A stretch of 33,268 nucleotides of DNA, from the IMG/VR virus record IMGVR_UViG_3300042465_002874, positions 1 through 33,268 of that record; one strand, written 5' to 3'. Position 1 is the stretch's first letter, and each line of letters begins with the position of its first letter. Below are positions 7,495 to 33,268 of the stretch, one piece after another. The stretch is from a virus. The notes under the pieces were generated by a model. It searched no databases, was not told where the DNA came from, and worked only from the letters and a program-made list of their open reading frames with translations. A program made the position numbers and the translations under genes.

Positions 7495-9447
7495 ATGAAA
7501 CCAGTTTACATCACAGACACCTCAATCGCTAACGGCTTCAACCCAAATGGCATTGTCACTCCCTTCTCCTCTGTTGGTTACTTGACTTACAAGCGCACAT
7601 ACTCCCGTGGCGTTGAAGGCCAAAGTCGCACTGAAGAGTTTGCAGAGACTATTGACCGCTGTATGACGGGTGCTCAGCAACAACTCGGTGTGGGATATTC
7701 TCCTGAAGAGTTTGCTCGCTTCCGTGACTACCAGTTAGGCTTGAAAGTCTCCATGGCAGGTCGCTTCCTGTGGCAACTTAACACTGCTACTGTTGGTAAG
7801 CTCGGACTGCCTTCGTTGCAGAATTGTGCCTTTACTGTCATTGATAGTCCAGTGCGCCCTTTCACTTGGGCATTTGAGATGCTCATGCTTGGCTCAGGCG
7901 TTGGCTTCAATATCCAGCGTGAGAATGTTGATAAGCTTCCCATTGTGTCAATGAGCTTTAAACCTCCGACGCGGCAAGATGATGCCTCAGCAGACTACAT
8001 CGTCCCGGACACTCGGGAAGGTTGGATGCGTCTGTTGGGCAAGACGTTGAAGGCAGCGATGCAATCAACTAACAACACAACGTTCAGCTACAGCACTCAG
8101 CTCATTCGTGGTTACGGTGCAAAGATCAAAGGCTTTGGAGGCACAGCTTCCGGTCCTGAGATTCTTGTTACTGGAATCGAACAAATCGCTCAAGTCCTCA
8201 ATAATCGCCGTGGTGAGAAACTACGCCCTATTGATTGTCTTGACATCATGAATATCATCGGATCGATTGTCGTAGCGGGCAATGTTCGGCGCTCTGCTCA
8301 AATCGCAATTGGAGACTTTGATGACGAAGAATTTCTCAACGCAAAACGCTGGGATATTGGCTCAATTCCTAAGTGGCGAGCCATGTCCAACAACAGCATC
8401 GTCTGGGATGGGAAGACACCCTTGGGCGAATCCTTCTGGGCTGGCTATGAAGGCAAGGGAGAGCCGTATGGTCTTATCAACTTGGAACTATCTCGTACGG
8501 ATGGTCGGCTTGGGGACACACGATACCCGGACCCACGCGTCGCCGGTTACAACCCGTGTGCTGAGCAATCTCTTGAAGACAAAGAGACCTGTGCCCTCGG
8601 CGAAATCTTCTTGCCTAACTTTGCATCGAAACGAGAGCTTATTGATGCAACAAAGCTCCTCTACCGAGTTGTCAAGCACTCTCTCGCCATGCCCGCCGTT
8701 GGCCTCCCTGAAACAGAAAAGGTTGTCAACACCAATATGCGGATGGGGCTTGGAGTCACTGGTTACTTACAAGCCACTGAAACCCAACGGAACTGGTTGC
8801 CTGCCGTCTATGAAGCTCTCCGAGCCTACGACGTTGAGTACTCAGCCCTGAATGGTTTTCCTGTCTCCATCAAGCTGACAACGTGTAAGCCTTCGGGCAC
8901 TCTGAGTCTTCTGCCGGGAGTCACACCCGGAGCACACCCGGGCTACTCTCAGTATATGATTCGGCGCATCCGTATCTCTGCTGACCATGCGCTAGTTAAG
9001 GTTGCTAAAGAGCACGGCTACTTTGTCGAGCCTCTGCGGAACTTTGATGGCTCCACTGAAATGTCCACCATGGTGATCGAATTCCCATTCGCGCATCCTG
9101 ATGGCACTATCATGGCAAACGACATGTCTTGCTTTGACCAGCTTGATACTGTTGCTCGCATTCAGCGTGAGTGGTCCGACAATGCCGTGTCTTGCACTGT
9201 GTATTACCGGAAGGAAGAGCTGCCCGCTTTGAAAGAGTACTTGAGTAAGAACTTTGCTACTCGGCATAAGTCTCTGAGCTTCTTGCTGCACAGCGGTCAT
9301 GGTTTTGACCAAGCACCTTTGGAGGCAATCTCTAAAGAGCGTTACATGGAGCTGGTGGCAAACACCCGCATCATCACGGCGCTGACAACTGGAATGGACT
9401 TGGACACTTCGTCTGAGTGCGCTGGCGGAGCTTGCCCTATCCGCTGA
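7495..9447 (+). CDS. Adenosylcobalamin-dependent ribonucleotide reductase (class II, monomeric)
   Basis: This enzyme reduces ribonucleoside triphosphates to deoxy forms using a cobalamin-generated thiyl radical, so it needs no partner subunit or oxygen. Key cysteines match Lactobacillus leichmannii reductase. Cys111 (LQNCAF) corresponds to Cys119. Cys355 in NPCAEQ and Cys366, eleven residues later, correspond to Cys408 and Cys419. The C-terminal CAGGAC (Cys642, Cys647) is the re-reduction pair. The 650 residues are shorter than the bacterial 739. ATG 7495 lacks a good ribosome-binding site and follows an AAC-rich leader. It is the last plus-strand gene before a strong terminator. Such reductases are common in phages of aquatic bacteria. 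Confidence 0.95.
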   Translation: MKPVYITDTSIANGFNPNGIVTPFSSVGYLTYKRTYSRGVEGQSRTEEFAETIDRCMTGAQQQLGVGYSPEEFARFRDYQLGLKVSMAGRFLWQLNTATVGKLGLPSLQNCAFTVIDSPVRPFTWAFEMLMLGSGVGFNIQRENVDKLPIVSMSFKPPTRQDDASADYIVPDTREGWMRLLGKTLKAAMQSTNNTTFSYSTQLIRGYGAKIKGFGGTASGPEILVTGIEQIAQVLNNRRGEKLRPIDCLDIMNIIGSIVVAGNVRRSAQIAIGDFDDEEFLNAKRWDIGSIPKWRAMSNNSIVWDGKTPLGESFWAGYEGKGEPYGLINLELSRTDGRLGDTRYPDPRVAGYNPCAEQSLEDKETCALGEIFLPNFASKRELIDATKLLYRVVKHSLAMPAVGLPETEKVVNTNMRMGLGVTGYLQATETQRNWLPAVYEALRAYDVEYSALNGFPVSIKLTTCKPSGTLSLLPGVTPGAHPGYSQYMIRRIRISADHALVKVAKEHGYFVEPLRNFDGSTEMSTMVIEFPFAHPDGTIMANDMSCFDQLDTVARIQREWSDNAVSCTVYYRKEELPALKEYLSKNFATRHKSLSFLLHSGHGFDQAPLEAISKERYMELVANTRIITALTTGMDLDTSSECAGGACPIR

Positions 9448-9459
9448 TAACAACTATTG

Positions 9460-9501
9460 AATACCACTGAAGTCTTAATTGACTTTGGTGGTATTTTTTT
9501 T
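9460..9501 (+). terminator. Rho-independent terminator after the reductase operon
   Basis: AATACCACTGAAGTC (9460-9474) and GACTTTGGTGGTATT (9481-9495) pair over 15 bp with two adjacent G-U wobbles, around a TTAATT loop. An unbroken T-run follows to 9501. This is a textbook intrinsic terminator for the plus-strand operon and starts 12 bases after the reductase stop codon. There is no matching A-run on its left, so it is unlikely to work well on the minus strand. Confidence 0.93.
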
Positions 9502-9574
9502 CGCTGAGCGGCTGAGCGTCATTATAAGTCCATGGACGTTTGGCCAACTAATTCCCTTTCATGCAGCGTGGATG

Positions 9575-9669
9575 GGCCTACCGCGATCGTCCGGGGCAGT
9601 TTTAAATATGGATTAGAGGGTAGCACTAAGGCTAAGGCTTTAAAGCCCACCACGGCCTTTTAAACCAGT
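9575..9669 (+). repeat. Intergenic 95-bp element, copy L
   Basis: This copy opens with GGCCTACCGCGATCG, contains TAGCACTAAGGCTAAGGC followed by the palindrome GCTTTAAAGC (9636-9645), and ends in TTTTAAACCAGT. The same order of blocks occurs at 33069-33164 (GGCCCACCACGATTG, TAGCACTAGGGCTAAGGC, GCTCCGGAGC, CTTAAACCAGT), and in divergent form at 9748-9844 (reversed) and 31686-31791. It lies downstream of the reductase in the same direction as transcription. Conservation of a palindrome whose bases differ between copies suggests a hairpin or dimeric binding site. Confidence 0.7.
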
Positions 9670-9683
9670 TGGCAAATGAAAAA

Positions 9684-9727
9684 TAACCTACCAATATTCT
9701 CCGGTTAAAGAGCGTATCAGTAGGTTA
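9684..9727. repeat. Inverted repeat at the centre of the convergent junction
   Basis: TAACCTAC at 9684-9691 and GTAGGTTA at 9720-9727 are exact inverted copies separated by 28 bases. Their centre, about 9705, is also the midpoint between the opposed 95-bp elements at 9575-9669 and 9748-9844. It may form a weak stem or mark a symmetric protein-binding site where the two transcription fronts meet. Confidence 0.4.
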
Positions 9728-9747
9728 GTGTCACATTTAAGGCTTAA

Positions 9748-9844
9748 ACGTGTTTAAAGGCCCGCCACCGCATTTGGACCGTAGGCCCTAGTGCTTATAA
9801 GGGCTAGCCTGTCCGGGACCAGCATGGGCAATCGTGGTGCGGCC
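9748..9844 (-). repeat. Intergenic 95-bp element, copy I (reverse orientation)
   Basis: Read on the minus strand, this begins about 18 bases after the last structural gene's stop and carries CACCACGATTGCCCA (9839-9825). That 15-mer is identical to the 15-mer at 33073-33087. Further along come AGCACTAGGGCCTA and CCTTTAAAC at positions equivalent to the other copies. CCGCACC near its start can pair, with one bulge, with GGTGGCGG near its end. Its orientation follows the structural operon transcript, so it would lie in that transcript's 3' untranslated region. Confidence 0.65.
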
Positions 9845-9861
9845 GTTTTGCCATTGTCAGG

Positions 9862-11547
9862 CTAATTTCGCGCCCCAGATAGCATCCCGGCCCGCAGTGC
9901 CTCTTCAGAGGGTGCATAAGAGCTCAAGGGCTGCTTTGGAAGCTGTTTGCCACCCAAGATTTGTTGCATCATGCCGTACTGAGCCTCTTTAGCCATAGGG
10001 CCTGTTCTCCAATGCGCTAAGCCACCAACGGCCTGCAGAGGCAGCGAAGCTCCACCAGTGCCAACTGCGAGAGCAGCTCCAGCGGTCGGGAGGATGCCAC
10101 CACGAGCAGGGCTAAGCTTAGCAAGGATTTCAGTGACTGCTTGAGTCTTTGAACCTTTGTGGTAAGCTCTGAGAGCATCTTGTTCTTCCTTGCTAAAGAG
10201 TTTGAACTTTGGCTCTGAGCGAATCAATTGGCCAATCTTTGCTCGGTAACGTTCTGCGAGAGTACCACCTTGGAGTGTCTCTGCCTTAAGCAACATGTCC
10301 TCAACCAGCTTGGCTTTAGAGGCCTGAGTGTACGCTAAGTCCGCAGCCTTCTTGTATGTCAGACCTTCCTTCATTGCCGCAAGCTCATCGGTGCCTGCAG
10401 GGAGGAATTTGCCATTGGGACCACGGACAGCTGAGGTGTTGGTATGAAGTTGCTTCGGCGTCATTGTCTCAACCAACTCATCGAAACGCTTCAGAGCCGC
10501 ATATCCTACACGCTTTGATTCTTTTGATTGGGTAATACCGCCACCTACCGCTTCGTTGCGCATGTCGGTGCGGACCTTCATCAGCTTATCTAAGTCGATG
10601 CCAATCCATCCAGTCTTACCGTCACCACTATGCTTTGCCAAGTAGTCAACAGCCTTGTGAGCTGGTTGGTTGGCTAAGAGGTCACGATCACCAATGTGCT
10701 TACGAAGCTCATCCACCATTGTGCTGGTTGTCTTGCCAGTAATGACTACACCTGATTGCTTAGACTTCTCATAGAGCGCTTGAGCCTCTTTGAAGCGGTC
10801 ATCAGAGGTCAGAAGCTTACTAGCACTCAGCTTAGGAGTTGACCGTGGACCGCCAATGATATTGGCTAAGACCTCAGTTACGGCTCCAGCAGTTGGATTG
10901 ACAATACTCACAGCATCACCAAGGCCTTTAGCGCCTGCGGCAACGCCTCCAACGCGCGCTAGAGCAGCAACGCCTTCCTTTGAAGCCAAAGCTGCGCCTT
11001 TAACGCCACCTGCTCCTCCAGTTAGCACCATTCCGCCAGCAGCTTCAGAGCCCGCCTTGGCCATGCGCTCAGCCACATTCTCAGCTTTAAGATCACCGGG
11101 TAGGAGCTGATTGATGGCACCTGTAACATCAAGATTTGCAAGGTATTCATTCTGACTCGCTACAGGTTTATCTTTGAAGGTTTGAGTGCTATTGAGCAAC
11201 TTCCGTCCAGCCCAGTCAATGCCACGAGCACCAAGAACTGCGAGCTCTCCGGGTGCAGCAAGTGCACCAGCAACGAGGCCCTTTGCGGAGATTCCACCTA
11301 CCCGCATTGCCTGTTGGCTAAGGGTCCGGGATGGTGCTACCAGCTCACCACGATCGACCACGCCGGTCTGTTCCGGAGAGGGAGAACTAATTGTAGGGGC
11401 TACGGGAGAAGGCCCGCTGGGGCCCGTTTGGCCAGCCGTAGGATATTGGCGCAACACTTCATTTTGAACATCCTCTTGAGAAGCCCCGGAGGGCCCTTCA
11501 ATGGTGTATGATTTGCCGTTAGGCGCCGAGATTGTATAGCTAGCCAT
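9862..11547 (-). CDS. Internal virion / DNA-ejection candidate, 561 aa
   Basis: The N-terminus YTISAPNGKSYTIEGPSGAS followed by EDVQNEVLRQYP is a short module I recall at the start of large podovirus virion proteins. A Pro/Ser-rich linker (residues about 40-65) follows. Next comes a long Ala/Gly-rich, hydrophobic stretch (about 80-230) that could insert in membranes, then a charged helical C-terminal half. No lysozyme or transglycosylase motif is seen. It is the last gene of the structural operon, next to two other Ala/Gln-rich proteins, the usual place for proteins packaged inside the head and ejected with DNA. ATG 11547 follows TGGAG after an AAC-repeat leader. Function is inferred from composition and position. 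Confidence 0.72.
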   Translation of the reverse strand: MASYTISAPNGKSYTIEGPSGASQEDVQNEVLRQYPTAGQTGPSGPSPVAPTISSPSPEQTGVVDRGELVAPSRTLSQQAMRVGGISAKGLVAGALAAPGELAVLGARGIDWAGRKLLNSTQTFKDKPVASQNEYLANLDVTGAINQLLPGDLKAENVAERMAKAGSEAAGGMVLTGGAGGVKGAALASKEGVAALARVGGVAAGAKGLGDAVSIVNPTAGAVTEVLANIIGGPRSTPKLSASKLLTSDDRFKEAQALYEKSKQSGVVITGKTTSTMVDELRKHIGDRDLLANQPAHKAVDYLAKHSGDGKTGWIGIDLDKLMKVRTDMRNEAVGGGITQSKESKRVGYAALKRFDELVETMTPKQLHTNTSAVRGPNGKFLPAGTDELAAMKEGLTYKKAADLAYTQASKAKLVEDMLLKAETLQGGTLAERYRAKIGQLIRSEPKFKLFSKEEQDALRAYHKGSKTQAVTEILAKLSPARGGILPTAGAALAVGTGGASLPLQAVGGLAHWRTGPMAKEAQYGMMQQILGGKQLPKQPLSSYAPSEEALRAGMLSGARN

Positions 11548-28637: not shown

Positions 28638-29900
28638 TCAATACCCGATGTATGGGTCAAGAATCTCATGCTCAGCTTCTTCGTAGTGGGATGCGAAGTT
28701 AACTGTGGCAACTTGAGCGATGTAGGCAAGAGAGTCAATACGGTCATCCTTGCTCGTAGGGGACGGAAACATTGAGAGTTGTTTCTTAACCTCAGTCCAA
28801 TCTTCATCCTCATTGAATGTGATCTGCCCATGCTCAAACTTAGCTTGGAGTGCGTAAGTGATTCGGTCAACCTTCTTCTGATTGCCGTGTGTCAACTCTT
28901 GAACGTGAATGTAGACACCATAGCGTCTCATCTCAAGCTCTAAAGTATCCATGACGGCGTTGCGGGACATACCACGCTCAATGCCGAAAGCAACAGGCTT
29001 GTACTTACGCAGCAAAGCAAGGATATGCGTTACAGTCTCTCTAACGGACCAACGGCCAGCGAGAATCTTTTCAACATACCACTTACCTTCGTCACTGATC
29101 TTCACTACTGAGAGCGCTGATTCATCGTTCTTAGACTTCTTGCCTTCAGAGGTATATTCGCCTCCAAAGCCTGCCAAGTCTCCAGTGATAACAAAGTCGC
29201 CATACTTGGGTTCTTTGCCGAGCTTAAAGAGTTCATCTTTGAAGATGTCAGAGCCAGGCGTCGTGAAGGATGCCATAAACTCAACTTCAAAAGTGTAAGC
29301 GCTCATTGTCTTATGAGCAGCCTCAATCTCACCACGATCAATAGTAGGATTATCGTATGTTGTCAAGTGAGTCGCTGACCACTCTTCATCACCACTCTCA
29401 AGAGCATAAACGTAGAGGTCATAGAAGCCATTGAAGCCATTAGGTGAGCTAATGAATAGTGCGCCACCTTTCAAGTCCGCTAGAGCAGGTCGAATCGTTC
29501 GGGTCCACATCTCCATGCCAGGATAGAAGGCAATCTCATCGAGCACACAGAACGCGAGTTTAAGACCTCGCATGCCGTCGGGAGCTTCCGCTGACCTAAA
29601 ACAGATTTTAACGCCATTATTGAGCAGGATGTCTCCTGCGTTAGAGTTAGAGGTCTTTATGAACTCTCTAGCCTCTTCAATCATGGCGTCGTAACCAATT
29701 TGCTTCGATTGGGCCGCAGTTGGGCCAACATAGCCGACGACTGAGCCTTTAGGAGCCTTTAGAGCTTCAGCAAGACAGCGCTTAATAGCGTAGTTACTCT
29801 TGCCACAGCGTCGCCCGGCGCAGACGACTTGAAAGCGTGCGCCTGAGGACCACAATAAGAGCTGCCATGGGAGCAGTACCCAATTGATGATGCTACTCAT
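28638..29900 (-). CDS. Large terminase subunit (ATPase-nuclease), 420 aa
   Basis: This motor packages DNA into the procapsid and cuts concatemers. Walker A is CAGRRCGKS (Lys34) and Walker B is FCVLDE (Asp121-Glu122). LFISSPNG a little later fits the coupling motif. The RNase H-like nuclease has candidate metal aspartates in ITGDLAGFGG, plus FGIERGMSRNAVMD and SKDDRIDSLAY. It is short compared with T7 gp19 (586 aa) but contains both domains. The ATG overlaps the small-subunit stop by eight bases. Confidence 0.94.
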   Translation of the reverse strand: MSSIINWVLLPWQLLLWSSGARFQVVCAGRRCGKSNYAIKRCLAEALKAPKGSVVGYVGPTAAQSKQIGYDAMIEEAREFIKTSNSNAGDILLNNGVKICFRSAEAPDGMRGLKLAFCVLDEIAFYPGMEMWTRTIRPALADLKGGALFISSPNGFNGFYDLYVYALESGDEEWSATHLTTYDNPTIDRGEIEAAHKTMSAYTFEVEFMASFTTPGSDIFKDELFKLGKEPKYGDFVITGDLAGFGGEYTSEGKKSKNDESALSVVKISDEGKWYVEKILAGRWSVRETVTHILALLRKYKPVAFGIERGMSRNAVMDTLELEMRRYGVYIHVQELTHGNQKKVDRITYALQAKFEHGQITFNEDEDWTEVKKQLSMFPSPTSKDDRIDSLAYIAQVATVNFASHYEEAEHEILDPYIGY

Positions 29901-30345
29901 AGCTACCTACGTCTGTGATGTCCTCTACAGAGCCTTGAGAGCCAACAACGGTAGCTGTTGAGTTTGTCAAGCCTGAGATATTGATGGAGATTGTTGGGGA
30001 CTGATTACCATTGACAGTCTTATCGAAGTGCGATAGAGGTAGTACGCGGTCAATGCACATCTTTAGAGCGCCCATTTGACCCGGGTGTGAGTCGTTGAGC
30101 GCAATAGTGATGAGCTTAGACATCAGTACTGGACCATTGTCACCCATCAGTAAGGCTTTGAACTCTTCGATGCGTGCGGCTTGACCGGGTGGACGCCCAA
30201 TTGGCTTGACTGGCGCCAATAGACCAACTCCAGGGATATTCGCTGCTCTAGCGACAGTCGTTGGCTTCCCCAAAGGAGTCTTTGGAGTATTGTTGATTTG
30301 CTGCTGTAAGAGCTCAGAGGCAGCAGACTTGATTGTAGTAGCCAC
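29893..30345 (-). CDS. Small terminase subunit, 150 aa
   Basis: GRPPGQAARIEEFKALLM, then ITIALNDSHPGQMGALKMCI and DRVLPLSHFDK, match the helical core of podovirus small terminases that recognise the packaging site. The Gly/Pro-rich N-terminus is probably flexible, and the Ser/Thr-rich C-terminus may contact the large subunit. It is the first gene of the minus-strand operon and begins at the edge of the repeat-rich gap, where its DNA target is expected to lie. Confidence 0.85.
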   Translation of the reverse strand: MATTIKSAASELLQQQINNTPKTPLGKPTTVARAANIPGVGLLAPVKPIGRPPGQAARIEEFKALLMGDNGPVLMSKLITIALNDSHPGQMGALKMCIDRVLPLSHFDKTVNGNQSPTISINISGLTNSTATVVGSQGSVEDITDVGSYE

Positions 30346-30443
30346 TTAAGAGCCCTTTGAGTGATGATTGACAGTAAGTAAGACCACCATCAGTGTTAAT
30401 ACAAAGTACTTAGAAGTACCATTGAGTTATTACTATAAGAATA

Positions 30444-30472
30444 ATTATAACAATAGCTCAATGAACCTTAAA
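30444..30472 (-). promoter_or_regulatory. Weak candidate promoter for the structural operon
   Basis: On the minus strand TATAAT lies at 30449-30444, about 100 bases before the small terminase ATG. The hexamer 17 bases upstream is TTTAAG, a poor match to TTGACA. The region is very AT-rich, so a chance match is possible. Confidence 0.3.
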
Positions 30473-30511
30473 GGACTTTAAAGACTCTATGATACATAAA
30501 GGACTTTAAAG
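30469..30511. repeat. Paired TAAAGGACTTTAAAG repeats
   Basis: TAAAGGACTTTAAAG occurs exactly at 30469-30483 and 30497-30511, a 28-base period. Each contains the palindrome CTTTAAAG, and a related CCTTTAAGG follows at 30553-30561. They lie 120-220 bases upstream of the small terminase start and could be terminase or regulator binding sites. Confidence 0.6.
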
Positions 30512-30559
30512 GTTGAAGCTTTATATTCAACAATAATAGCTATACTCAAAGACCTTTAA

Positions 30560-30728
30560 GGGCCTCCTACCTATAGGACGCACGAAGGCGATGATTATAG
30601 TTGTTCGACTCCGTCTTACAGTTATTACTGATATTCAGAGAACACCCAAGCCTTTTGAGCTCAGGTTTCTCACTGCACAGAATGACCCGTTTGGGCCTTA
30701 TACCTATAGGACGCACGAAGGCGATGAT
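30560..30728. repeat. 36-bp direct repeat containing CCTATAGG (two copies)
   Basis: Copies at 30560-30595 and 30693-30728 differ at only two bases: GGGCCT, two variable bases, then 28 identical bases starting TACCTATAGGACGC and ending GGCGATGAT. CCTATAGG is palindromic and resembles the CTATAGG start of T7-family promoters. Read on the minus strand the conserved part is mostly upstream of TATAGG, as expected for tandem phage promoters firing into the terminase operon. No phage RNA polymerase gene is in this window, so function is open. Confidence 0.65.
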
Positions 30729-30931
30729 CACTGTTAGGACGCTCAAGTGCATTAGAGTCCGTACCTTTATTACAGGCGCTCAGCACCGATACTCGTAATT
30801 TAGTTACAGGTATACTCTAGAGACTCTGAAGCACTCAGTCGTACTTTCAGCCAGCAAGTAGCAGTAACAATAACTCAAAGCATACTTTCTCTTTTTCTTT
30901 TTAGAATCAACAGCTTACGATCAAGGCTTCG

Positions 30932-30963
30932 GTGACTTTCGAGTGACTTTAGAGTACTATCGA
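30932..30963. repeat. 11-bp GTGACTTTNGA tandem repeat
   Basis: GTGACTTTCGA (30932-30942) and GTGACTTTAGA (30943-30953) are adjacent, followed by a diverged third unit GTACTATCGA. The period is close to one helical turn. It is a short element in the non-coding region with no known function. Confidence 0.45.
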
Positions 30964-31140
30964 GTGAGGTCTTTCTCAGAAGATGCTTTGTATTACTGTG
31001 GAAATGCGTTGAAAATGCGTTGTTTTGTGACGATGAGTTCCGTTTTGGCCTTTCGAGAGGCTTTGAAGCAGCACTATAAATCTACAGCTGCTGCGACGCC
31101 ACCCCCCCCCAGAGCCTCAAAGTCCTAACCAGCCTCAATC

Positions 31141-31325
31141 GCAACATCATGCAACAAGTGCGACGAAGTGTAACAAGTGCGACGAAGTGTAGCAAGTGCT
31201 TCAAAGTGCTCAGCCGTAACTAAATTACGTAACAGGATGTAAAAGTCGTAACGAATGGCAACGGATTGTAATAGATGCGACGGAGTGCTACGAAGTGCGT
31301 CAGAGTGTAACAAGTGCAACGGTGG
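31141..31325. repeat. Degenerate 9-10-bp tandem array, consensus GYRACRARGT
   Basis: Roughly 17 units alternate between 9 and 10 bases, for example GCAACAAGT, GCGACGAAGT, GTAACAAGT, GCGACGAAGT, GTAGCAAGT, GCTTCAAAGT at 31151-31207 and GCGACGGAGT, GCTACGAAGT, GCGTCAGAGT, GTAACAAGT at 31277-31315. Two units make a 19-bp higher repeat at 31151 and 31170. A diverged middle part contains GTAACTAAATTAC, an imperfect palindrome. Near-helical spacing suggests a phased protein-binding array. Confidence 0.7.
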
Positions 31326-31331
31326 TATACT
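31323..31331 (+). promoter_or_regulatory. Candidate extended -10 box TGGTATACT
   Basis: TGGTATACT fits an extended -10 (TGn plus TATACT). The 14-mer GGTATACTTTAGAG here recurs with one change at 30809-30822 (GGTATACTCTAGAG). No good -35 is present. The nearby ribosome-binding-like AGAGGA would fall at the transcript start, so it does not fit with the short ORF that follows. Confidence 0.3.
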
Positions 31332-31393
31332 TTAGAGGATTCTTATGGTAAGAGAGCTGAGCAAGGACCCTAAAGGCTATAAAGCAACTTCAA

Positions 31394-31466
31394 AGTATCT
31401 TTATAGTCACTCAGTATCTTTATAGTCGCTTCATCCACATCGCATCTGCTCAGTCATAAAGATACT
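31394..31466. repeat. AGTATCTTTATAGTC repeats, 19-bp period plus inverted half
   Basis: AGTATCTTTATAGTC occurs at 31394-31408 and 31413-31427, a 19-base period, and ATAAAGATACT, the inverse of its first eleven bases, occurs at 31456-31466. The inverted copy could pair with either direct copy to make a stem-loop. Confidence 0.65.
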
Positions 31467-31483
31467 ACTTAGTAATAAAAGAT

Positions 31484-31577
31484 CTATCAAGTAACTCTAT
31501 GACTATCAAGTAACTCTATGACTATCAAGTAACTCTATGACTATCAAGTAACTCTATGACTATCAAGTAACTCTATG
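31484..31577. repeat. Five 19-bp iteron-like tandem repeats
   Basis: CTATCAAGTAACTCTATGA is repeated head to tail starting at 31484, 31503, 31522, 31541 and 31560; the first four are perfect and the fifth lacks only its last base. Perfect identity means recent amplification or strong selection. Iteron arrays of this unit size often bind initiator or regulator proteins, but no such gene is identified here. Confidence 0.92.
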
Positions 31578-31685
31578 TCATTAAGACTATTATCACAATT
31601 CATTGATAAAGTAAACACTTAAAGTGCAACAGTTGGTCACAGAGTTCTATATAGCTTTGAGCTATCAATTGTTGATTCTTTAAGA

Positions 31686-31791
31686 CACCACAATGTGGCG
31701 GAGTTTAATGGTCTTTTGGGAGCTTTAAATTTAGAGTTGATGCTAGCACCAAGGCCTAAGGCATTAAGCCAACTGGGACCCATTAAGCCAA
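31686..31791 (+). repeat. Intergenic 95-bp element, divergent copy M
   Basis: CACCACAAT at 31686-31694, AGCTTTAAATTTAGAG at 31721-31736, TAGCACCAAGGCCTAAGGC at 31744-31762 and GACCCATTAAGCCA at 31777-31790 line up in order with the blocks of the copies at 9575, 9748 and 33069. It is the only copy not directly downstream of a recognisable gene. Confidence 0.5.
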
Positions 31792-31884
31792 CAATAGCTG
31801 CTGTTGGTCTATCATAAAGCTTTAAAGAATCATCAAGGCTATCAGTCTCATCAGCTTCGTGTTGCACACTGTTACACTTTAGTG

Positions 31885-31915
31885 GCTTAGAAGAGCTTAG
31901 AAGAGCTTAGAAGAG
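31885..31915. repeat. Three 10-bp GCTTAGAAGA repeats upstream of a TATAAT box
   Basis: GCTTAGAAGA is repeated three times without spacing (31885, 31895, 31905), ending about 13 bases before a TATAAT at 31928. A 10-bp period places each unit on the same face of the helix, as expected for an activator-binding array. Confidence 0.75.
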
Positions 31916-31933
31916 CCTTTATTGAACTATAAT
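31905..31933 (+). promoter_or_regulatory. Candidate promoter P1 (TATAAT 31928-31933)
   Basis: A perfect TATAAT is preceded at 17 bases by GCTTAG, a poor -35, within the GCTTAGAAGA repeats. Weak -35 plus phased repeats suggests activator dependence. The motif TGTTACAC lies at 31870-31877. A 12-codon ORF with a good ribosome-binding site follows. Confidence 0.4.
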
Positions 31934-31964
31934 ATATTTAACAGCAACAAACAAGGATAACTAA

Positions 31965-32003
31965 ATGATACTTATTGACAAAGCACTGATTCTCAAAGAC
32001 TAA
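31965..32003 (+). CDS. 12-residue leader-sized ORF
   Basis: ATG 31965 is preceded by AAGGAT at 31953-31958 with ideal spacing and lies about 32 bases after a TATAAT box. The frame encodes MILIDKALILKD. Promoter, ribosome-binding site and start codon in series are suggestive of a real leader peptide, but at this length composition gives no support. Confidence 0.28.
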   Translation: MILIDKALILKD

Positions 32004-32026
32004 GTTACAGACTGTTACACTCTAAG

Positions 32027-32056
32027 TTGCCTTAACTGAACAACTTAGACTATAAT
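32027..32056 (+). promoter_or_regulatory. Candidate sigma70 promoter P2
   Basis: TTGCCT at 32027-32032 and TATAAT at 32051-32056 are 18 bases apart, matching the bacterial consensus at four of six and six of six positions. TGTTACAC at 32013-32020 lies immediately upstream of the -35. It would read toward DNA ligase. Confidence 0.5.
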
Positions 32057-32125
32057 TGATTTGTGTGTGTTTTAACTTAGCGAACTATGTCACAATTTTA
32101 CGTAGGCCGCTGTCACTTTGTGGTC

Positions 32126-32145
32126 TATAATAATAAATGCTTACC
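32126..32145 (+). promoter_or_regulatory. Candidate promoter P3 with TATAAT and AAATGCTTACC
   Basis: TATAAT at 32126-32131 is followed by AATAAATGCTTACC; nearly the same string follows the TATAAT at 33212 and appears before the DNA polymerase gene at 2323. No good -35 is seen. Its expected start point near 32138 makes ATG 32170, not 32137, the ligase start. Confidence 0.42.
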
Positions 32146-32169
32146 TTAATTAAACCACTGGAGTCTGCC

Positions 32170-33069
32170 ATGACAAAACCCACCCTCTCAGTCAACCTTG
32201 CTGCTACTCTTGACAAAGGAGCTGCTGTTGTGTTTCCTAAGTTCGCTTCACCGAAGTATGATGGTATTCGATGTGTTATCATTGATGGTGCTGCGTACAG
32301 TCGGAATATGATTCTGATACCTAACTTGACAGTTCAAGCTTACTTCGCTGATGGCCTTTGTGATGGCTTCGACGGGGAGCTTATCAGTGGACGCCACGAC
32401 AAGGATGTCTTCAAGCGCACTTCGTCAGTCGTGAGGTCTATCAATGGCTCCAGTGAGTGGCACTTCAAAGTCTTTGATATTGCTAACGCCAACGCTGATG
32501 CTAACTTCTCAACTCGGCTGATGCAGATGCGTGAGCGTATCGCTGATCTTCAAGACTTGCAGAAGTTTAAAGTCTCATTGGTGGTACAGACCATGCTGCT
32601 GGATGACATTGAGCTTACTGAGTACGAGGCTAAGTGTCTTGCTGATGGCTATGAAGGGGCTATGTTGAGGAACCCAACTGCTAAGTACAAGAATGGGCGT
32701 GCCACAGCCAACTCTCAAGACCTCTTGAAGGTGAAGCAGTTCTCTGACTCCGACGCCATTGTGACTGGATGGACTCCTATGATTGAGGTAAGGGGGACAA
32801 CTCGATATGATTTGATGGGCTCTCTTGCAGTCAGAGACATCCACACCGGTATTGAGTTCTTTGTTGGTTCCGGCTTCACCGCTGAGGAACGTGTTATGTA
32901 CGCTTCAAACCCTCCAATGGGCCAAGTGTTCACTTATCAGTTCTTTGCTCAAGGTAACTACAATAAACCGAGGTTCCCGACGTTCAAAGGGTTTCGGCTT
33001 GACATTCCCGCTGGCGCAGCGTATTTGGGGCCAAAGTGTAACGGAAGGGGCTTGACCACCGGAAAGTAG
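32170..33069 (+). CDS. ATP-dependent DNA ligase, 299 aa
   Basis: The enzyme seals nicks through a lysine-AMP intermediate. Motif I is KYDGIR with nucleophile Lys29. DGELI, WHFKVFDI, EGAMLRNP and LLKVKQF correspond to later nucleotidyltransferase motifs, the last carrying the motif V lysines. A short OB-fold domain follows (DAIVTGW, GSLAVRDIHTGIEFFVGSGF). It is shorter than T7 ligase (359 aa), a minimal two-domain form. ATG 32170 has CTGGAG ahead and lies downstream of promoter P3; ATG 32137 would lie at the transcript start. It is the first large gene to the right of the repeat-rich gap, an early-gene position. Confidence 0.95.
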   Translation: MTKPTLSVNLAATLDKGAAVVFPKFASPKYDGIRCVIIDGAAYSRNMILIPNLTVQAYFADGLCDGFDGELISGRHDKDVFKRTSSVVRSINGSSEWHFKVFDIANANADANFSTRLMQMRERIADLQDLQKFKVSLVVQTMLLDDIELTEYEAKCLADGYEGAMLRNPTAKYKNGRATANSQDLLKVKQFSDSDAIVTGWTPMIEVRGTTRYDLMGSLAVRDIHTGIEFFVGSGFTAEERVMYASNPPMGQVFTYQFFAQGNYNKPRFPTFKGFRLDIPAGAAYLGPKCNGRGLTTGK

Positions 33070-33164
33070 GCCCACCACGATTGCCCACACCGGTTCCGGA
33101 AGGGTCTGCCTATACTAGCACTAGGGCTAAGGCTCCGGAGCTGGTGGTGGACCCTTAAACCAGT
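33069..33164 (+). repeat. Intergenic 95-bp element, copy R
   Basis: It begins at the ligase stop codon. CCACCAC at 33072-33078 can pair with GTGGTGG at 33144-33150, enclosing TTCCGGAA and the perfect palindrome GCTCCGGAGC (33132-33141). The 15-mer CACCACGATTGCCCA (33073-33087) is found exactly, in inverse, at 9825-9839. The tail CTTAAACCAGT matches copy L. The position suggests a 3' untranslated or terminator-like element for the ligase message. No long T-run follows. Confidence 0.75.
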
Positions 33165-33188
33165 AAAGTGTAACAGTTTACTATAAGC

Positions 33189-33217
33189 TTGTTAAATGTC
33201 AATAACGGGCTTATAAT
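33189..33217 (+). promoter_or_regulatory. Sigma70-like promoter P4
   Basis: TTGTTA at 33189-33194 and TATAAT at 33212-33217 are separated by 17 bases, the best match to a bacterial promoter in the window. GTGTAACA lies 13 bases upstream of the -35 and may be an operator. AAATGCTTACC follows the -10, as at P3. It would drive the gene beginning at 33251. Confidence 0.68.
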
Positions 33218-33250
33218 AAATGCTTACCAATCACCAACAGGATTACTATC

Positions 33251-33268
33251 ATGGCAACAGCAGCACCA
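33251..33268 (+). CDS. Start of a further gene (partial, MATAAP...)
   Basis: ATG 33251 lies about 27 bases after promoter P4's expected start point and is preceded by AGGATT at 33240-33245. Six codons, MATAAP, are visible before the window ends. Identity cannot be determined. Confidence 0.6.

Follow-up and report, generated by a model that had tools for sequence, protein, structure and literature searches.

A repeat-rich gap between the divergent arms of an uncultured phage genome as a candidate site of joined ends and a replication origin

Saffermanviridae and Zobellviridae with a two-arm gene layout carry terminal repeats where the divergent arms join (PMC6775973). The gene-free region between the arms of SIO1 is about 80% identical to the terminal repeat of ICBM1, and the 5' ends of cobavirus terminal repeats share a conserved G+C-rich region (PMC6775973). 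Pf-WMP3 (234 bp), A-4L (810 bp), Pf-WMP4 (107 bp), and VpV262 (139 bp) are two-arm phages whose terminal repeats lie at the divergent junction. Once the ends are joined, their gene-free length is 0.26-1.78 kb, as against 1.82 kb for the gap studied here. That gap, at 30346-32169, is where two opposed arms diverge in the window, by which we mean the whole virus record of 33,268 bases. An earlier note on this DNA had suggested that the gap may represent the joined termini of a linear T7-like genome. Joined ends are plausible as to place, but not in the T7 manner. We consider it somewhat probable that the gap holds the joined ends of a linear genome together with a replication origin and control region.

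Gene layout and packaging genes

The rightward arm carries the replication genes, namely a ligase, primase/helicase, DNA polymerase, exonuclease, endonuclease I, MazG, and a class II ribonucleotide reductase. Structural genes make up the leftward arm, and the two arms converge at a hairpin terminator (9459-9496) with a 16-bp stem and a T-run (fold z = -7.1). The leftward arm begins with a small-terminase candidate and TerL. As the earlier note had read it, the candidate (29893-30345, minus strand) borders the gap on the left and reads away from it. It is the ORF directly upstream of terL, which it overlaps by 8 bp, and a counterpart is found upstream of terL in 73 loci. The candidate has no match in Pfam or PHROG, and a search with the protein alone returned no relatives.

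On the right the gap is bordered by the first early-arm gene, an ATP-dependent DNA ligase (32170-33069, plus strand; PF01068 and PF14743; phrog_114). A ligase like it was absent from 40 out of 40 searched relative records, and a scan for ligases turned up distant ones alone, all on contigs at least 168 kb long. The window ribonucleotide reductase (7495-9447) is only 26-29% identical to the enzyme of the relatives. Because the one lacks a counterpart in the searched relatives and the other is so divergent, the two look like replaced or acquired genes.

The genome does not resemble that of T7 in its overall plan. No gene for a phage single-subunit RNA polymerase was found in the window, where every ORF of at least 600 aa was assigned another function, though the contig may miss a piece. 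The TerL falls outside the T7 clade, and the window has two opposed arms rather than the one direction of T7. Circularization of the assembly through a terminal repeat had been a condition of that suggestion, but the window record has no end repeat to show it. A short frame that has a ribosome-binding-like site continues from the end of the record into its start (33251-33268 and 1-84), which weakly fits a circular contig.

The window TerL is of the Terminase_6N/6C type (PF03237/PF17289), not PF22530, and lies outside the T7/N4/VpV262/Saffermanviridae clade. As some long branches joined falsely in the TerL tree, with lambda placed inside the family, profile scores were used instead. Against the family profile SSU5-type pJN2-26 and nickie scored 213-232 bits, HTVC010P 140, HFTV1 129, T5-like phages 104-114, P23-45 90, and T4 53. 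At the lower end were the Saffermanviridae (19-28 bits), N4 (23), VpV262 (1.6), and T7 (-2). The kin of the TerL include both phages with terminal repeats (T5-like) and a phage with headful packaging (P23-45), so that its phylogeny does not decide between packaging modes.

Repeats, promoter-like sites and DnaA boxes

The extent given for the gap and its description as repeat-rich both hold. It contains no supported gene, only short mechanically called ORFs of at most 76 aa, and its GC content is 0.392 versus 0.496 for the whole window. Four tandem arrays in it score at least 50, the best being a perfect, iteron-like 19-bp repeat of 4.9 copies (31484-31577, plus strand; score 188). In 300 dinucleotide shuffles of the gap the mean was 0.007 such arrays and the best score 55.

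A 44-bp palindrome (30420-30463) lies 75 bp upstream of the small terminase (fold z = -5.0; z = -6.3 for 30400-30560). It is overlapped by a promoter-like site on the minus strand (30461-30432) that points into the terminase operon, and we propose that the two form a late operator/promoter. Relatives have an AT-rich palindromic stretch in the matching position. Two microRNA matches to the palindrome in Rfam were both at chance level. Further right, a 55-bp direct repeat is found at 30548-30602 and, 133 bp further on, at 30681-30735 (both plus strand). Its core, TACCTATAGGACGCACGAAGG, occurs twice in the window and nowhere else, with 0 expected. About ten 9-10-bp repeats (RAGTGY...) follow in helical phase at 31156-31321 (spacings 10, 9, 10, 9, 10 and 10, 10, 9), all on the plus strand and none on the opposite one; these are proposed initiator sites. 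Two copies of an 18-bp repeat spaced by 19 bp (31394-31430) precede the 19-bp array, and a 10-bp repeat of 3.2 copies (31885-31916) comes after it, both on the plus strand.

Early-type promoters and the ligase were said to lead out of the right edge. The ligase does start there, and consensus early-promoter sites are present at 32027-32056, beneath a 15-nt inverted repeat (32015-32056, plus strand), and at 33189-33217. However, promoter-like sites overall are only modestly above chance (9 versus 4.8 expected, sd 2.3). A 14-bp motif, ACTGTTACACTYTA, is located near early promoter-like sites at 31868-31881, 32011-32024, and, inverted, 33164-33177, and is possibly an early operator. A dispersed intergenic element of about 75-100 bp is present in four diverged copies that are 62-73% alike. 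One copy is in the gap (31718-31790), one after the ligase (33064-33165), and two in the convergent region (9560-9672, plus; 9738-9850, minus). Rfam gave no match to the element in 9440-9870 and 30346-33268, and the three copies outside the gap have no RNA-fold signal.

We also examined how the gap compares with that of related phages. Relatives of the TerL, portal, and capsid are common in IMG/VR, with only distant ones among isolates. Complete relatives are about 34-41 kb with the same two-arm order as the window. A gene-free stretch of about 0.8-1.9 kb lies upstream of their small terminase, and a similar gap recurs in dozens of uncultured relatives.

The gaps of 78 relatives contain 117 copies of the consensus DnaA box TTATCCACA, a count made over related and hence not independent sequences. 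The density is 0.94/kb in the gap versus 0.015/kb in the neighboring early genes, and for permuted control words the median count was 1 and the highest 22. At least two boxes are found in 37 of the 78 relatives, and 11 of 17 TerL clusters have at least one such member. Among these is L003, which with one other sequence was nearest by TerL in the first scan. This spread over clusters argues against one inherited accident. In L076, 11 strict boxes fall within about 230 bases (1158-1389 bases upstream of the terL start), many spaced by 11 or 22, along with several near-variants. The boxes of the relatives adjoin tandem repeats, the sequences of which differ among relatives, and a C-tract is often just ahead of them. 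Across the whole window record there is no consensus DnaA box. The position of the boxes is taken in the window by the phased 9-10-bp repeats and the 19-bp iterons, which form an iteron-type feature of tandem repeats in helical phase beside AT-rich DNA.

Given the number of boxes, the tandem repeats next to them, and DNA that is palindromic and rich in AT, we infer that the DnaA boxes of the relatives form a replication origin. The repeats in the window gap look like a replication origin at least as much as like terminal-repeat arrays. More tentatively, these phages, a widespread family of uncultured tailed phages, may start replication at a DnaA-box/iteron origin on the joined genome ends, feeding a T7-type replication set, with members swapping the boxes for iterons of their own; or the dense boxes may act as a DnaA sink that blocks host initiation. 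If so, this would be a phage family with T7-type replication proteins tied to the host DnaA, which is unusual. No initiator gene was recognized in the window.

The C-tract and where the genome may end

A run of nine C (31102-31110) on the plus, early-gene strand is the sole run of at least six C on either strand of the window. A C-tract of the type CCCCTCCCCCC is found on the early-gene strand of the gap in 70 of 79 sequences (the 78 relatives and the window), and on the opposite strand in none of 17 printed examples. Outside the gap, just 12 C- or G-runs were counted in 433 kb. The word GAGGCT is present at 31057-31062 (plus strand), and 61 of 69 relatives have a GAGGCT-like word 23-38 bases ahead of the C-tract.

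Among 11 reference phages with terminal repeats, nine show 4-6 consecutive C on the early-gene strand, beginning 20-29 bases in from the left end. The run starts at base 26 in T7, 27 in P-SSP7, 26 in phiKMV, 29 in SP6, 26 in VpV262, 20 in Pf-WMP4, and 27 in Pf-WMP3, PP, and A-4L, where the closely related Pf-WMP3 and PP count as one case. The exceptions are RIO-1, with C-runs at other positions, and phiEco32, with no C-run. In Pf-WMP3 and PP the only C6 runs on the early-gene strand are the two terminal copies. By analogy with these left ends, the C9 run supports a predicted genome end near 31075-31083, 20-29 bases to its left, although the terminases being compared are of different types. When known ends were turned into a weight matrix, it did not single out this site; the matrix was too weak, with leave-one-out ranks of 2 to 27. 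A repeat of the window, CCTATAGGACGCAC, looks by eye like the T7 end; the matrix did not support the likeness (score 2.2, rank 447), and a scan of viral contigs for the repeat found none.

Contig ends of the relatives bear on the same question. They number 0.29 per kb in the gap versus 0.15-0.16 elsewhere, which is compatible with both physical ends and assembly breaks. None of 22 relatives of at least 34 kb has an exact end repeat within the gap. In one DNA cluster, contig ends are concentrated at a distance of 470-560 bases from where terL starts. They flank a pure-AT palindromic stretch on both sides rather than marking one base, and we read them as assembly breaks, not physical ends. Overlaps of 87-143 bp at the ends of relatives were not accepted as terminal repeats, as they look like assembly k-mer overlaps in unrelated genes, and larger imperfect overlaps (G041, G061, G064, and G065) look like strain joins. 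A 125-bp "terminal repeat" of Skadi-1 (PMC10504331) was set aside, since the record ends inside terL.

Some further ends were observed. G006 and G057, two nearly complete linear relatives, are broken nowhere but in the gap. In G006 both ends meet without overlap at a single position, which lies upstream of the small terminase by about 75 bp. At the start of the contig L259 (bases 1-30) is a TTCCCC...GGGTGTAC element that resembles the left end of Pf-WMP3, with 26 bases between the contig start and its C-run. In gaps of the G021 type, a TTCCCC...GGGTGTAC site about 540-590 bases from the terL start is a second candidate end in the cluster with the pile-up.

Of the proposal that the gap joins the termini, the place is supported, given the ends at the arm junction in Saffermanviridae and Zobellviridae and the conserved C-tract; the exact end repeat is missing from the gaps of the 22 relatives. 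We suggest that the joined ends of the linear genome coincide in the assembly with an origin and control region. A late promoter with its operator palindrome would drive the terminase and structural arm leftwards. Terminase would cut at the left genome end near 31075-31083, 20-29 bases before the C9 run. Inside this end an initiator would bind the phased 9-10-bp repeats and 19-bp iterons and open the DNA, a position at which many relatives have consensus DnaA boxes. Rightward transcription of the ligase and T7-type replication genes would come from early promoters. Once the DNA has entered the cell, its ends would be joined either by recombination between terminal repeats, of whatever length, or by annealing and ligation. 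Against this reading stand the window's lack of a DnaA box, the failure of the weight matrix to pick the site, the two reference phages without a C-run at that position, a TerL outside the clade whose ends show the run, the absence of relative contigs ending with an exact gap repeat, and the one cluster whose ends pile up about 400 bp away at an AT palindrome. Joined ends plus origin predict that the genome ends no more than a few bases from 31075-31083 and that DnaA binds the clustered boxes of the relatives. If this is right, a positionally conserved C-tract could serve to predict, without reads, where uncultured phage genomes end.

A less probable but serious alternative is that the gap is only a divergent control region and origin, with headful packaging from a pac site near the terminase genes and no fixed ends. 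The C-tract would then serve some other purpose, perhaps within the origin, and in relatives it does often come just before the DnaA boxes. The TerL is nearer to that of P23-45, a pac headful packaging phage (PMC6397560), than to T7-type terminases, and P23-45 likewise has divergent arms beside its terminase genes. The circular contigs of relatives are closed at many different genes, though terminal-repeat genomes too would give circular closure. Moreover, TerLs of T5-like phages outscore that of P23-45, and T5-like phages have long terminal repeats. Headful packaging also leaves the match of the C-tract to known left ends unexplained.

It is improbable that the ends lie in the gap with cohesive single strands or a very short repeat, not T7-like, that the early ligase seals after entry. 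In the window the early arm opens with the ligase, no relative contig has an end repeat, and the ends of the complete linear contig G006 meet at one gap point. However, the searched relatives lack the ligase, the TerL is far from the cos terminases of lambda and HK97, and the G006 break falls within palindromic DNA made of A and T alone, which an assembler may just fail to cross. We give least credence to a gap that is functionless, whether through decay, hypervariability, or faulty assembly: tandem repeats differ between relatives and some contigs break in the gap, but this reading is contradicted by the conservation, across independent samples and lineages, of the gap itself, the place of the palindrome, the C-tract, and the DnaA boxes.

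Comparison with known systems

P23-45 (Oshimavirus) is like the window in its Terminase_6-type TerL and its divergent arms beside the terminase genes. It differs in headful packaging from pac (PMC6397560), a genome of 84 kb, and the lack of a comparable 1.8-kb gap. Bacterial and plasmid origins resemble the gaps of the relatives in having clusters of TTATCCACA boxes together with tandem repeats and palindromic DNA rich in AT. Unlike them, this is a phage with T7-type replication genes and no recognized initiator gene, and the window has iterons without boxes.

T7 (Autographiviridae) has short repeats near its genome ends, and its terminal repeat has a C5 at base 26. It shares the primase/helicase, DNA polymerase, exonuclease, and endonuclease I types with the window, and is unlike it in having an RNA polymerase gene, another TerL type, and a single direction instead of two opposed arms. 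The Zobellviridae/cobaviruses (VpV262, RIO-1, ICBM1, and SIO1) have two arms, as in the window. Where these diverge, they carry terminal repeats 121-173 bp long, and their ends have long stretches free of genes, which in VpV262 add up to 1.78 kb once joined. Cobaviruses also share a cobalamin-dependent RNR and MazG with the window. However, the VpV262 TerL is unrelated to the window family at the profile level (1.6 bits), and VpV262 is without DnaA boxes.

The Saffermanviridae (Pf-WMP3, Pf-WMP4, PP, and A-4L) are without an AT-rich gap of iterons or DnaA boxes, and their TerL is of another clade, though their capsid protein is related to that of the window (28-36% identical). Like the window, they have opposed arms (replication left, structure right) that converge at a terminator, and no annotated RNA polymerase gene. 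Their genome ends, known where that of the window is predicted, lie at the divergent junction with a C-run 20-27 bases inside the left end.
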